A DNA stretch of 64,000 nt from Lycorma delicatula (Eukaryota > Arthropoda > Insecta > Hemiptera > Fulgoridae), in NCBI RefSeq assembly GCF_047948215.1, contig NC_134462.1, positions 115,162,937 through 115,226,936 on the forward strand, given 5' to 3'. Under the pieces are notes generated by a model that ran no database searches, had not been told where the DNA came from, and worked only from the letters and a program-made list of their open reading frames with translations. The position numbers and the translations under genes were made by a program. Shown here in pieces: positions 1,090 to 39,718 of the stretch; within the stretch, counting starts at the first letter, position 1, and each line of letters opens with the position of its first letter.

Positions 1090-1992
1090 AATAATAAACT
1101 AATAAATAATAAACTGACCGGTTCTGTTAATAACAAGGAACACAAAAGATCTGCGTCAGTGTTGAATACAGATACAGTCACTGAAATCAAAGACCGATTA
1201 CTAGCCTCCCCAAATAAATCGATCAGACGTTTATCTGCTGAAATTAATTTTTCTAAATCAACTGTTCATCGGGTGACCAAACAATTACAATTACGACCTT
1301 ATTGCATTCAAACGGTTCATCACCTTCTTGAGCTCGACAAAGAAAAACGGCTACAATATTGTCAACGGTTCCGTCGATTTCTGCGTGAGGGAATTAATGT
1401 TATGGATTCGTTATTTTTCACAGATGAAGCACGGTTTCATTTGGACGGCTACGTAAACAGCCAAAACAGTAGAATTTGGAGCGCTGAAAATCCCCACGTG
1501 TATCACGAAAAACAATTACACCCGCAGAAGTTAAGCGTTTGGTGCGCGATATCGCGGAAGAAAATAATCGGTCCTATTTTTTTCGAGTACACCGTTAATG
1601 CAGAACGATATCAGGATATTTTATTTCAGTTCACTGCACTCTTGGAAGAGGAAGACAGACACTGCTGGCTACAACATGACGGTGCGACATCGCACTACGC
1701 AGGTTCAACTTCTGATTTCGTCGAGGAATTCTTTGGTAATCGTGTTATCGGTCGAGGCTTGTGGCCACCAAGATCTCCAGATTTGACTGCGGCGGATTTT
1801 TTTCTATTGGGTTACCTCAAAGAAAAAGCCTACCGCAACAAACCACGAACACTTGAACAATCGAAAATCAATATTGAACAAGCTGTATTAAATATCCAGC
1901 CACAAACTTTGAAAAAAGTTGCAAGAAACGCTGTAAAAAGAATTGAAGCTTGTATTCAGGAAGATGGCGGCCACTTCCAACATTTACTCTAA
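1090..1992 (+). CDS. Tc1/mariner-superfamily (IS630-type) transposase, uninterrupted
   Basis: This is an open frame for a cut-and-paste transposase that would act in the nucleus on its own inverted ends. Numbered from the Val codon at 1159, residues 18-45 form a helix-turn-helix (SIRRLSAEINFSKSTVHRVT). D89 lies in FFTDEARFHLDGYVN. A conserved block IWSAENPHVYHEKQLHPQKL leads to LSVWCAIS. D174 lies in WLQHDGATSHYA, and PPRSPDLTAADFF supplies the third acid (D208 or D213). The gap between D174 and D213 is 38 residues, longer than the 34 of classic mariner. The frame is open back to 1090 without an ATG, so the true N-terminus, probably another DNA-binding part, is missing or lies in a separate exon. 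No stop or frameshift interrupts the catalytic core, which suggests fairly recent activity. The likely right end of the element is GGGACACCCTGTATA at about 2087-2101. Confidence 0.85.
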   Translation, partial: NNKLINNKLTGSVNNKEHKRSASVLNTDTVTEIKDRLLASPNKSIRRLSAEINFSKSTVHRVTKQLQLRPYCIQTVHHLLELDKEKRLQYCQRFRRFLREGINVMDSLFFTDEARFHLDGYVNSQNSRIWSAENPHVYHEKQLHPQKLSVWCAISRKKIIGPIFFEYTVNAERYQDILFQFTALLEEEDRHCWLQHDGATSHYAGSTSDFVEEFFGNRVIGRGLWPPRSPDLTAADFFLLGYLKEKAYRNKPRTLEQSKINIEQAVLNIQPQTLKKVARNAVKRIEACIQEDGGHFQHLL

Positions 1993-4031: not shown

Positions 4032-5808
4032 TTAACACGTTTAATACGGCGGATAAAAGAGGGACCATAACCATTTTGCTCTACGGGCAACTATAATGCC
4101 GTATAGTAATTACATACTATGCGTTACGGCGCATATTGATCCGTTCTGAGGTTTTGTACTGTGCGTGTAGTTTTTATACGGATTTACTGTATATGCAGAA
4201 CTGGTCGACCTTGGATTTTCGTTCAGTGTACATTTGTGCCGTACTGCATATCACATTGTTTTTAATCTCTTTCTGACTATTTCCTTTTCATATATTTTTA
4301 TAACAAGTTTTTCAATAAATCATTCATAATACTACTTAATCTTATAAATGCTGATTTTTATTTATAAATTAAATTAATTATATTACGTCACCTAATCCAT
4401 TACTCATCGTTTTGATTTGTCATCTTATTATTCCTAAATGAAATATATGTTGAGATATTTTTGTTTACAAAAAACATCCATTCAAATGTATATTTTAATA
4501 ATAAAAACACTGGACAAAATATAAAATTTATTAACAGAAATTTGGGTCTGAATCGCTTCACATAAAATGTTTATACGCTTGCTTATAAACACCTTCAAAA
4601 TTATTAAGTAACTAATAATTTATTTATTTTTTTTTTTGTCTTCAGTCATTTGACTGGTTTGATGCAGCTCTCCAAGATTCCCTATCTAGTGCTAGTCGTT
4701 TCATTTCAGTATACTCTCTACATCCTACATCCCTAACAATTTGTTTTACATATTCCAAACGCGGCCTGCCTACACAATTTTTTCCTTCTACCTGTCCTTC
4801 CAATATTAAAGCGACTATTCCAGGATCCCTTAATATGTGGCCTATAAGTCTGTCTCTTCTTTTAACTATATTTTTCCAAATGCTTCTTTCTTCATCTATT
4901 TGCCGCAATATCTCTTCATTTGTCACTTTATCCACCCATCTGATTTTTAACATTCTCCTATAGCACCACATTTCAAAGGCTTCCAATCTTTTCTTCTCAG
5001 ATATTCCGATCGTCCAAGTTTCACTTCTATATAAAGCGACACTCCAAACATATATTTTCAAAAATCTTTTCCTGACATTTAAATTAATTTTTGTTGCAAA
5101 CAAATTATATTTCTTACTGAAGGCTCGTTTCGCTTGTGCTATTTGGCATTTTATATCGCTCCTGCTTCGTCCATCTTTAGTAATTCTACATCTTTAGTAA
5201 TTTATTTATATTTGACTTTAATTTTTTTTATCGACATAATATTATTTCGTGATGGTGTCATTGTGAAAAAAACTTTTTTAAATTCATAATATGGAATGCT
5301 ATTTTATCATTTATATACTTTGAAATTTTTAATTTTATTTTTAACCTTTATTAAATTAATACCATAAATTAATTATATATCATTATAAATTACAATAAAA
5401 AAATTTTTATAGAAAATTTGTCATATTTTAATAAAATAAATGATGCTGGCACGGAACAATCCAGCAAAATTACCCCTAATAATTATTAGGAATAGACGCC
5501 AAATAAAAATATGTGTAAAAGAACGGTTTGAAATATAGTTGGTTCACATGTTTTCTGAGAGACATCGTAAACTATAAAATCATTTAAAAAATTATTTTTA
5601 ATTATAAAGAGAAATAAAATATTTTAAACATGTGCCGTAACGCACAGTCGTCAAGTACAATACGGCAACAATGAGGCCTGTACAGCCCAAGAGTTAAGTT
5701 AAATAACATACCGTTTAGCACTGTACTGGAATTACGCAAACGACGACAAGCACAGAGCAACTACGTATTACGGCACATATATGCGCCGTACCGCAGCGAA
5801 TGTGTTAA
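4032..5808. mobile_element. piggyBac-like non-autonomous element with TTAA at both ends
   Basis: TTAA occurs at 4032-4035 and 5805-5808. Reading inward from each end gives TTAACACGTTTAATACGGCG on the left and TTAACACATTCGCTGCGGTA on the right, followed there by CGGCG. The hexamer TACGGC or its complement GCCGTA recurs about eight times near the ends (about 4045, 4098, 4128, 4233, 5634, 5662, 5770 and 5786). These look like transposase-binding subterminal repeats. No transposase frame is present. A 570-bp LINE insertion (4628-5197) accounts for about a third of the length. TTAA targets and short ends are typical of the piggyBac superfamily, so the class is inferred. Confidence 0.6.
4628..5197 (-). 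mobile_element. 5'-truncated RTE/craniofacial-like LINE, 3' end of reverse transcriptase
   Basis: The minus strand reads the C-terminal part of a non-LTR retrotransposon reverse transcriptase: KRAFSKKYNLFATKINLNVR, then VALYRSETWTIG, RLEAFEMWCYRRMLKI, WVDKVTNEEILRQI and GRPRLEYVKQIVRDVG. It ends with ASNQSND and a poly(A) tail, which appears as T-rich sequence at 4628-4637. The open frame from 5103 to 4642 is intact, but the polymerase core and endonuclease are absent because of 5' truncation. TAATTTATTTAT flanks both sides (4616-4627 and 5198-5209), a 12-bp target duplication. The insertion lies inside the TTAA element and is therefore younger than it. Confidence 0.85.
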
Positions 5809-34467: not shown

Positions 34468-35416
34468 TATACGAGGAGGCTCGGCTGATAAATTTTGTCA
34501 TTTATATGCGTAGCATGGGAATAAAAAGAGATAATGGAATGAAATAAAAAATGAATAAAAGCTACAAAATACAGCATTTATTTTTCAATATAATCCCCGT
34601 TTGCACGGATACACTTTTCCCAACGTGTGACAATTTTCATTCCGTCGCTGAAACATTCTGCCGGTCTTTCTCGTATCCAAGTGGCCAAGTGGCCATACCT
34701 TCCTTCACCTCATCGTCGGTAATCATCGAGGTGTAATGATTACCTCTGAGATCCCGATTGTGACGAGGGAAGAAGTGGAAGTTGCACGAAGCCAAATCCG
34801 GCAATTATGGCGGATTAGGAATAGGATCAAACTTCAGCTTGCGGAGAGCCATCACAGAGTTTGCGCGGTATCCATCGTGCACAGATTTTACAGTAACCCA
34901 ATCGCTTGATAATATGGCCTACTCGTTCTTTAGGTATGTCTAACTGAATAGCGATGAGTTGCTGGGTGATGCGCCGGTCACGTTGAAGTAAATCGTCCAC
35001 CTCCTTTCGATGTTTCTCGTCAGTCACAGAAACTGGTCGTCCGCTCCGAGGTACGTCCCCAATTGTCACTTTACCAGCTTCACATTCGCGAAATTTCAAC
35101 GCCCACCTGTTCACAATACTCCTGTCAACCGTTTCACTACCGTAAATCGCTTTTAAACGATGAAAAATATTCGTACGATTAACATTTTCTGCTGTTAAAA
35201 AGTTGATCATTGTGCGCTATTTTAAACGTGTTGAGTATTGGCCGTATTCGACTCCATTTTAACTACTACTGAAAACAAACCGGTAAACGGATTTCAACGC
35301 ATTACAGCAGGTTTTTAGAAGGGATTTTACCTATCATGTGCTTCCACCTCCAACTCGATAGTACCTTTTGTCTCCGTGTAGCACGCTAGTTTGCAAAATT
35401 TATCAGCCTCGTATTT
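34468..35416 (-). mobile_element. Internally deleted mariner (about 0.95 kb)
   Basis: The ends are inverted. The left (34468-34497) reads ACGAGG, 8 extra bases, then CTGATAAATTTTG, and the right (35394-35415), read inward, is ACGAGGCTGATAAATTTTG. The minus strand from 35210 encodes the N-terminal DNA-binding half with two helix-turn-helix parts: FLTAENVNRTNIFHRLKAIY and QLIAIQLDIPKERVGHIIKR. The linker GRPVSV lies between them, and it runs to CARWIPRKL. The reading then jumps to the C-terminal third motif, where PPYSPDLAPSDF has become PP*LPDLASCNF (34790s), so the third Asp is Asn. The first two catalytic motifs are deleted. Such a form could have moved only with help from another copy. Confidence 0.85.
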
Positions 35417-35950
35417 ATATAGCCTATGACATTTCAGGAAAGGATTCCAACGCGGAGTCATACATCTAAATCGGCTCAGCCGTTGAACTGCTACGGTGAA
35501 ACATATATACATACATACGCCCTATAGACATTACACTTCTTTTTGAGCAGTCGTGTAAAAACATTACGTCGCGTCGGCCTTATTAGCAAAGGACGTAACT
35601 CCACTTTTTGACAATTTTAAGATTTTTATATCACAGCCTTCAGAAAAGGCAGTAACACTACATAATTAATTTAAACGTAAAAATCAAATTTTAGTCAAAA
35701 TCGTATCTAGATAGCCAGTTAACGTTACTTAGCAAGTTGTAATTCTCTTTAGTCAATGTGAATGTTATGCCGTTAAGATTAGTGTTGCTACAGTGCCTCT
35801 TTTTTTTTACTTCCAAGCGTTCATTAAGGTTTGTCTAACAGTAGAAGATTATTTTAAAAAATCTTTAATAACCACACTAACTCATTTGTGATAAAAACTA
35901 AGAGTGATCAGTTTTTGTGGTCAATGAAAGAACTAATTATTTTCGGAAAT

Positions 35951-36000
35951 GGAGTTACGTCTGTTGCTTATTAAAATCGCTAAGCAAATGCTGTAACTCC
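35951..36000. repeat. Internal palindromic copy of the transposon end motif
   Basis: GGAGTTACGTCTGTTGCTTA and TAAGCAAATGCTGTAACTCC are near-perfect inverted copies separated by 10 bp. The second arm also resembles the element's own tip AGCAAAGGACGTAACTCC. Confidence 0.8.
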
Positions 36001-36256
36001 AATCAGATTAAATAAAAACTGCAGTTCGTTGATCATCGGAAAAAACTCAAATGAACTTTTTTCTTTTATTTTTCACAAACATGTTCAAATATAAACTAAT
36101 AGATTGGATAAAGTATTTTAGTAACTTAAAAATATTTAATGGCCAGAAAATAACATGTAGCATACTGATTTAGCAGCTTTTATAAAGAGTTAACACGATT
36201 ATATATCTTTTATTTCAGATTAAAGGCTAATTCTTATTTTAAGACTGTTACCGTGT

Positions 36257-38660
36257 TTGCTTCAAGAACTGATAAAACAATGTGAACCTGAAACTAAAAA
36301 TTTAATTGAAAATATGAATAGTGTTTTTAATGCCGATAGTTTGTTAATTGTTAGTGAAAATGGAACTGTCTCTGATTTTAACGTGAAAATAAATAAAATC
36401 GTTCAGTGTTATGTCGTAGGCTTAAATCGAGGCAAGGATTCTGTAAAACTAGTTAGAAAAGAACACATTAATCAAAACAATGATGATACATCAATTGATG
36501 TTGAAAAATACAGTGATAAAAGGATTTTTGATCTAAATAGTCAACCATGTTTTGGTGGTGAAAACGATATTCATTTCGAAGTAATGACTTCAGATCCCAA
36601 CTCACACAAAAAGTGTTGACCGAAACTGATGATTTCCTGGTTAGTGAAAATCAAAATTTAAACCAATCACCTGTCAATTTTGAAACAAGTACTGATGAAG
36701 AACGGCTAGATGATACAGTTATCATACTGATCGCGAGCCTTCATTTAGCTCAGACAAAAATTATGAACATGCCTACCGTACAATTAAAATTCAATTGGAT
36801 AGTAGAAATCAAGCTGAAATGGATGAAGAAATACTTCTGAGTGGCATACTGACAAAACAAGATAATCCTCAGCAAAAAAGATAAAGGCTAAAATACTAAC
36901 ACGTCACTGAAAAAGACTGGCAAGTAAATGTCAACTAAACTGCTAGAGAAAAAGTAAAATCTTATTTGGGAAAGGTATGTAAACGGAAAATGGAAATGAT
37001 AAACCAAAACAAGAAAGAAAAGTTAGAGAATGTTGTAGATATAAGCAGATAGTTAATTCAAAAATTAGGTGTGCCAGTATTTCAGAAGATTAAAAAAAAA
37101 TTATTTTTGAAAACTTCCGAAAAATAACGAAGCAAAAAAAAATTTACCTTAACATGTTTGTTGTGGTTCGTCCAACATCTGAAAAAGAGATCGCAGAGAC
37201 CATGAGACAAGTAGACGAGAATCTTCTTTCATTTATTATTTGAAAGAAAATCAAGAAAAAATCCGGGTCTGTAAAACAATGTTTTTGAACACTTTTGGAA
37301 TAGGAAAGAAGGAAGTCAGAAACTGGAAAAAACTATTAGTATTGCAGAAAATAAACAAGCAATGGGTGATGATAGACATAGAGGCAAGGGTAAATAAAAC
37401 TATGAAATCACAACTAATATTAAGAAATACCGAATGATTTCATTTCTGATGCAAGAAATAGATTCTTTGGTGATTCTAAAACTGCGATGAATAATTTTTT
37501 TGGGTAGCCTATCAATAATGTAGTCTCATTACTGTAGAAAAATTTCATCAAAACTATACTTGGAACCGATGTGGGTTACAAAGCAAGGCCTTTATAGAGA
37601 AGATAGTGATGTACAAAACGTAAAACCATTATCCATTGCTGTATTTTCGAAAACATTTTCAGATAAAAACATCAGTTTTCAGTGTTTGTAGGTCAAAAAA
37701 ATATGAATGTGTTATTTGCATTGTACAGGGTATAATTTGCATGGTACAGGTGTTTTTTGTACAGGGAACATTACTGAAGATGTTCACATCAAGCATATCA
37801 AGATGAAAGATAAAGCAAAAAAGAAAGTGATAAGGCATGTGAAAAAATGTTGTATTTACAGTGGACTTACAGTCTATCTTACTGTGCCCTAAATCAAATG
37901 TCTCAAGTTTATATTATAAAACAAAATTGGCTGTACATAATTTGACATTCTTTAATTTAAAAACTAAAGAAGTATTCTGCTATATCTGAAATGAATGTAA
38001 GGGCGGATTAATAGGTAATGATTTTTCATTTATCATTTGTGTTAGTTACAAAACAATGCCCTCACTTTAACATTGAAATCATAATTATGTACAGTGATGG
38101 GTGTTGCTATCGAATCTTTCAAACGCTTTGTTCAATCTAGCCAGACTAAAAAAAAAACTATTGAACAGACGTTTCTTGAAAAACGACACACGCAGATGGA
38201 AGCCGACTCAGTACATTCCCAGATTGAAAGGCAAGCGAGAAATACAAATGTCAATGTTCCTGCAGATTACGTTGCTGCCATAGAAAACGCACGACGTACC
38301 CCTTCTCTTTACTTAGTGAGATACCTAGACCACACATTTTTCCAAAATTTTGAGTCTTCAATACTTTAAATCTGTATGACCTGGTAAAAGAGTTGGTGAT
38401 TCTTTCGTTGTAGATACCCGAGCATTTAAATACACCTCAACTGAAATAAAATACAAGCTCAGAAATAGGGACGCATGGGAAGACTTTCCAATACGATTGT
38501 TAGACACAGTACATTGTTAAGCTGTTTTATCTGAAATTCCACCCTTATACAAAGAAATATTAAAAATATAGAAACGAAAGTATGAGTTCTGCAAAGTTTA
38601 AAAAATACTCTACCAGCTGATTACCATTCTTTTTATAATAATTTACCTTATAATAGGTGT
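36257..38660 (+). pseudogene. Decayed gene of an uncharacterised insect transposase-like family
   Basis: The 5' part is an intact 120-codon frame starting near LQELIKQCEPETKN. It runs through many stops and shifts to readable landmarks: VCKTMFLNTFGIGKKEVRNW (about 37268-37327) and DLQSILLCPKSNVSSLYYKT (from 37864), then KLAVHNLTFFNL. After these come IMYSDGCCYR (38083-38112), FLEKRHTQMEADSVHSQIER (about 38174-38233) and, near the end, LPADYHSFYNNLPYN (about 38611-38655). From memory these blocks, in this order, define a large set of predicted insect proteins with no assigned function. The Asp of DLQ, the Asp of YSDG and the Glu of QMEADS stand where a DDE nuclease would have its metal-binding residues. 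That role, and the likeness to Sola-type GHT-M-ADS-H motifs, is inference. Confidence 0.68.
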
Positions 38661-39357
38661 TAAAAAAAGTTGTGTTTAAATTAAAAATATACTTTATCAT
38701 TTTTGTTGTTCACAAATTTCTCTCGATTCTTGGAAGTTTTGTAACTCGTATTTTTTACATATTAGAATCTTAGTATTCTCATTTTGTATCTATAATTTTT
38801 AATGATATCTTTTTATTTAATAAATAGATTTTCTAAGCTAAAATATTCTTTATGTTAATAGTATCTAAAAATTAAAACCAGCTGAATAATTTTTACTTCC
38901 TAGAAATAAAATATCGTAACTCCAAAGAAGAAATAGGATTTTAAAAAGAAATAGTCGTAACTCCTTGAAAATTTAAAAATATTAAAACTTAGCTAGTAGA
39001 AGTTAAGTACAACAAACAATGATAAATTTTACTAAAATTAAAGACCAACAGAAGTTTCTTCGTTTCTAAAATAGGAACAGAAACAGTTTTATTGTTTCCC
39101 TGTAAAATTTGTCATTTTGGAGTTACTGCCATTACTAATTACGTCGACTACTAGTAAAACTTCACGCGTATGAGATACATCTTTTTAAATTCAAAAATTT
39201 TAAATTGTAAATTAAAATTACGAACAAAAGATTTGAAAAACTATATAGAGCAACTGATGATGCGAGGTACTCGCGAAAGCGCTCTTGCTTGGATTATGGA
39301 ATAAGATAGGTGTCATCTTATTTTATTTTATTAATCTGTAGTTGGTTGATCAGATTA

Positions 39358-39492
<135 letters not shown>

Positions 39493-39718
39493 AAAGGTGG
39501 CATAATACTTTTTAGAGGCGTAGAATAAATTTTAGAAATATTTTTCTAATATATTCATATGTAAGTTAAGGTTAAAAAATTTGCTTAACTAAAGTTTTCT
39601 CTAAATCTAACACCCACTTCAATAAAAACTAGAATAAGAAAAAGAAAATTTTCAAATAATATTTTAAAGATCCGAGGTCAATAATTTAAAAAAAAAAAAA
39701 ATAGACATTTCTTGATAG

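Follow-up and report, generated by a model that had tools for sequence, protein, structure and literature searches.

A dead DDE/D cut-and-paste transposon in Lycorma delicatula and its protein family DUF7869, most probably equal to or within Sola2

Does a broken gene lying between imperfect inverted ends reveal what an orphan protein family does, and, if that family is mobile, to which kind of transposon does it belong? The question is raised by positions 35583-39138 of a 64,000-nucleotide stretch of the Lycorma delicatula genome (C8:115162937-115226936 within the 2.2-Gb assembly; the whole stretch is called the window below), which a first-pass annotation had described as a complete, unnamed DNA transposon whose gene belongs to a family of uncharacterised insect proteins. 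The window copy is a dead member of a real and partly recent transposon family. We consider it likely that it is an old DDE/D cut-and-paste transposon, whose protein family is Pfam DUF7869 (PF25273); this family in turn is most probably Sola2 itself or a part of it.

A 94-residue open piece of the window matched two fragments, one of them with Pfam DUF7869, and a read-through of the core gave 230 relatives, the closest among those listed being P0003 at 44% identity; the best 120 of the 230 underlie all conservation counts given here. Most matches listed carry neither name nor organism. Among the matches listed for the core query, the named rows read 'uncharacterized', 'unnamed', 'hypothetical' or 'DUF7869', with two 'Integrase catalyti(c)'; in this listing and that of the next query many named rows are from insects, much as the first-pass annotation had stated. 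Querying with a mollusc member yielded 757 matches, and the names among the best 120 of these included Patella, Littorina, Mytilus, Periplaneta, several Lepidoptera, beetles, a leafhopper and the fish Leuciscus. The relatives are 650-770 aa long, with a Cys-rich region preceding the catalytic core (120 proteins). The likeness to DUF7869, to which Pfam gives no function, lies in relatives that pass its cut-off of 26 bits: four of eight full-length proteins do so, three fall below it (P0003, P0009, P0038) and P0076 is unmatched, while a protein encoded elsewhere in the genome, at locus L011, passes with 32.6 bits and the window's own fragment stays below with 13.7 bits. An NCBIfam search gave nothing meaningful, blastn found no phage relatives, and scans of viral contigs and genome contigs found no nucleotide relatives within the two to three peptide patterns used per scan. 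One DUF7869 protein, P0132, is filed under a Sedimenticola metagenome-assembled genome; it probably comes from an animal host and was binned with bacterial sequence, because both genome-contig scans gave no prokaryotic relative within their patterns.

The gene in the window is a relic. Its P0003 tblastn match spans 37007-38651, including a homologous C-terminus at 38589-38651, and its N-terminal FASRTDKTM was likened by eye to the MxSRxxKI of the family. Where P0003 residues 174-760 are matched, 32 stops were counted (9 TGA, 6 TAG and 17 TAA), with stops read through; some of them may stem from out-of-frame reading. The three landmark blocks singled out by the first-pass annotation are present in the order given, each in a different frame:

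36256-38651, forward strand: transposase gene relic of the DUF7869 family, interrupted by stops and frame changes (tblastn of P0003, N-terminus by eye)
37864-37890, forward strand: DLQSILLCP, candidate first catalytic Asp (D495 of P0003; D in 119 of 120 relatives)
38090-38104, forward strand: YSDGC, candidate second catalytic Asp (D573 of P0003; D in 119 of 120 relatives)
38187-38219, forward strand: HTQMEADSVHS, third acidic residue (E612 or D614 of P0003; E612 in 117 and D614 in 120 of 120 relatives)

The element is thus complete in extent, as had been claimed, but its gene is broken.

Predicted models give the family an RNase H/DDE fold, as had been proposed, and together with conservation they assign one acid each to strand 1, to strand 4 and to the final helix. 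The two Asp of the suggested D, D, E triad are kept as candidates; the third acid, judged by conservation, may be the E of QME (E612) or the D two residues on (D614). With the transposase domains of Mos1/mariner and SETMAR the family shares this predicted catalytic fold, the order of strands and helices and the three acidic residues, whereas the family profile A1 detected no sequence similarity to solved chains, nor anything meaningful among solved structures as a whole. Mariner elements duplicate TA (2 bp) at their target. In a viral fold library the top match was an IS4 family transposase (4.8e-4), and the others were weak.

That the family is mobile was shown on younger relatives. At least 66 genome stretches match P0003, three of them being the window relic, and five loci (L010, L011, L012, L015, L017) form a young family whose matched pieces are 97.0-99.6% identical. 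L011 has an open frame that covers P0003 residues 176-758 and encodes 651 aa from an ATG, and its protein matches the family profile across 542 columns (E 2e-73) with all catalytic blocks in register; L010, L012 and L015 have open frames over shorter parts, and L017 contains one TGA. In L015 (3263 bp) and L017 (4098 bp), whose loci include both element ends, we found a 39-bp inverted match that includes ATAT and one further base, and the terminal repeats are therefore about 34 bp long. Once missing left flanks had been fetched, all five copies proved to be flanked by a perfect 4-bp direct repeat, which is ATAT in four of them and ATTT in L011 (C2:215841287-215845484, 4198 bp). Since ATAT is palindromic, it might be assigned to the inverted repeat; ATTT lacks this symmetry, and L011 therefore shows a true duplication. 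The joined flanks of L011 with a single ATTT had 40 matches in the genome, two of which were its own flanks; the four best others, crossing the junction at 93-97% identity, were fetched as empty sites, and all four carry a single ATTT, one of them (L039) with changed neighbours. The young family thus has a gene between inverted ends, a target duplication in five of five copies and empty sites in four of four cases fetched, and we therefore read the proteins as DDE/D cut-and-paste transposases, in line with the transposase identity that the first-pass annotation had suggested. Recent activity is indicated by the clean scars at the targets and by a long open frame in at least one copy (L011).

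To which superfamily the family belongs was approached through published descriptions. Sola elements are described there as having a DDD transposase, 4-bp duplications, a length that mostly falls between 2 and 9 kb and inverted repeats of at least 11 bp (PMC10741241), and amoebozoan Sola2 as making AT-rich 4-bp duplications of the form AWWT, e.g., ATAT, AAAT and ATTT (PMC3627910). A pygmy mole cricket is reported to have only old Sola2 copies (PMC11245825) and Sola2 is listed among the superfamilies of insect miniature inverted-repeat transposable elements (PMC5199201), so that Sola2 is already known in insects; on the DUF7869-type family itself the literature searches gave no usable paper. 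The young family agrees with these descriptions in its AWWT duplications, in a large transposase with an acidic D/D/(D or E) core (two Asp, with E612 or D614 of P0003 as candidates for the third acid) and in size, three young copies measuring 3.3-4.2 kb, with the roughly 34-bp repeats of L015 and L017 within the described range. It differs in the length of these inverted ends, which are 12-21 bp in the amoebozoan elements as described (PMC3627910). The window copy's own candidate 4-mers, TATT and AATT, are equal at three of four positions. Because target, size and core match published Sola2, we file the family as Sola2-like rather than new; it most probably equals or belongs to Sola2, to which it was likened through published descriptions. 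Of the two placements proposed by the first-pass annotation, unclassified or Sola-related, the latter fits better, given an AWWT target like that described for amoebozoan Sola2.

The family might instead be a separate, unnamed superfamily, a deep eukaryotic DDE/D lineage that shares merely a 4-bp AT-rich target with Sola2 by convergence and whose named members, among the matches listed, come from insects, molluscs and one fish record. Consistent with this, the literature searched contained no paper on DUF7869 or PF25273, and among the matches listed (120 per query) no visible, shortened name contains 'transposase', though two read 'Integrase catalyti(c)'. The likeness to Sola2, moreover, is drawn from published descriptions. 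We nevertheless regard a separate superfamily as unlikely, since target, core, element size and repeat size all coincide with Sola and Sola2 as published, and so common a family would, we reason, have been noticed by Repbase.

Several observations weigh against our assignment of the window copy to a Sola2-like cut-and-paste family. In the descriptions consulted AWWT is documented for amoebozoan Sola2 only, and Foldseek also returns endonuclease V, Argonaute, NurA and MutS at similar E-values. With 32-36% to P0003 the young family is only remotely related, and its ends are unlike those of the window copy. The window copy shows no perfect 4-bp duplication, and a genome search with a 618-bp left-end query, in which very common words were skipped, matched only itself and revealed no sister at the DNA level. 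For the last two reasons, the ends of the window copy rest on imperfect repeats.

Local alignment bounds the element of about 3556 bp by an imperfect inverted repeat that pairs 35573-35618 with 39148-39105 and holds GTAACTCC in each arm, in line with the inverted ends originally reported; within 35583-39138 the left arm reads TTAGCAAAGGACGTAACTCC and the right arm, when reverse-complemented, TTAGTAATGGCAGTAACTCC. GTAACTCC or its complement occurs six times inside these bounds versus once in the remaining 60.4 kb (Fisher p 2e-7), an enrichment far above chance, and its sites are grouped near both ends (at 35595, 35951 and 35993 in the left part; at 38916, 38957 and 39119 in the right part). The features are:

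35580-35584, no strand: left target-duplication candidates, TTA at 35580-35582 (first-pass bounds) or TATT at 35581-35584 (4-bp rule of the family)
35583-35618, forward strand: left terminal inverted repeat, imperfect, with GTAACTCC (local alignment; start may be 35585; similarity out to 35573)
35595-35602, forward strand: terminal GTAACTCC site
35951-35958, reverse strand: subterminal GTAACTCC site
35993-36000, forward strand: subterminal GTAACTCC site
38916-38923, forward strand: subterminal GTAACTCC site
38957-38964, forward strand: subterminal GTAACTCC site
39105-39138, reverse strand: right terminal inverted repeat (local alignment; end may be 39136; similarity out to 39148)
39119-39126, reverse strand: terminal GTAACTCC site
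39137-39141, no strand: right target-duplication candidates, TTA at 39139-39141 or AATT at 39137-39140

Taken by itself the window's repeat is only moderately unusual, as its score of 18 was equalled or exceeded by 28 of 2827 random pairs of pieces from this AT-rich window, and the inverted ends around the gene, which the first-pass annotation had offered as the main new evidence, are a weaker argument than claimed; the younger copies carry it. The same score would be compatible with a relic from a family of host genes, either domesticated or never mobile, caught between chance inverted repeats. This we hold to be very improbable, and for the family it is contradicted by the young copies with terminal repeats, duplications and empty sites; in addition, 54 of the 66 genome matches are interrupted by one or more stops, like decayed repeats.

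The exact boundaries of the window copy are uncertain by about 2 bp: the bounds 35583-39138 of the first-pass annotation leave a perfect 3-bp TTA on both sides, whereas bounds of 35585-39136 would follow from the 4-bp duplications of the relatives. The perfect TTA would suit a PIF/Harbinger-like element, whose target duplication is a 3-bp TWA, a reading that is scarcely credible for a DUF7869 protein with young relatives that duplicate 4 bp, the more so as brief AT-rich matches arise often in this sequence (7.9% of random 4-mer pairs agree in three or more of four positions). A 9-bp direct repeat seen by eye, ATTACGTCG (35563-35571 and 39138-39146), was rejected as a target duplication because the two ends would become unequal by 12 bp. 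The window contained no empty site for the left flank and no further copies of the element ends beyond one 25-bp match.

For the Sola2-like transposon we propose that an intact element would encode one protein with a Cys-rich, putatively zinc-binding region ahead of its catalytic core. This transposase would bind the terminal and subterminal repeats, in which GTAACTCC may play a part, excise the element by means of an active site of RNase H fold, formed by two D and by an E or D of the last helix, and integrate it at an AT-rich 4-bp target, producing the 4-bp duplication; the window copy may once have moved in the same way. Hundreds of proteins (230 and 757 matches), uncharacterised or called DUF7869 where labelled, can then be read as transposases, which cleans gene annotation and assigns DUF7869 a function. 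That function is the useful result, the kind of mechanism being already known.

Further DUF7869 families are present in the genome. A second, more diverged one (L003, L006, L016, L018, L023, L025, L026, L028, L029, L030) is about 74-97% identical in matched pieces, and in those of its copies that were examined an AT-rich 4-mer precedes the repeat of the right end. In the older family A, right ends with such 4-mers before the repeat were located, together with a single convincing left end (L003) that lacks a clear duplication. The ends of families B and D are near-matches by eye (ATAA/ATAT in L008; ATAT/ATAT with an extra base in L032). A third family (L004, L014, L019, L020) shows internal tandem duplications of about 200-480 bp. 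L016 was also considered as an empty site for L017 and rejected, the similarity being weak.

Around the element, a long AT dinucleotide tract lies at 39354-39494, about 215 bp to its right, and near its left end a relic at 34827-35216 (reverse strand) matches helix-turn-helix domains below cut-off, including that of the Mos1 transposase, and is probably a mariner remnant. Elsewhere in the window, 1159-1992 (forward strand) holds a 277-aa open frame that by eye resembles a Tc1/mariner-type transposase, and a 153-aa open frame at 4642-5103 (reverse strand) is, judged by eye, similar to the end of a polymerase from a non-LTR (long terminal repeat) retrotransposon.
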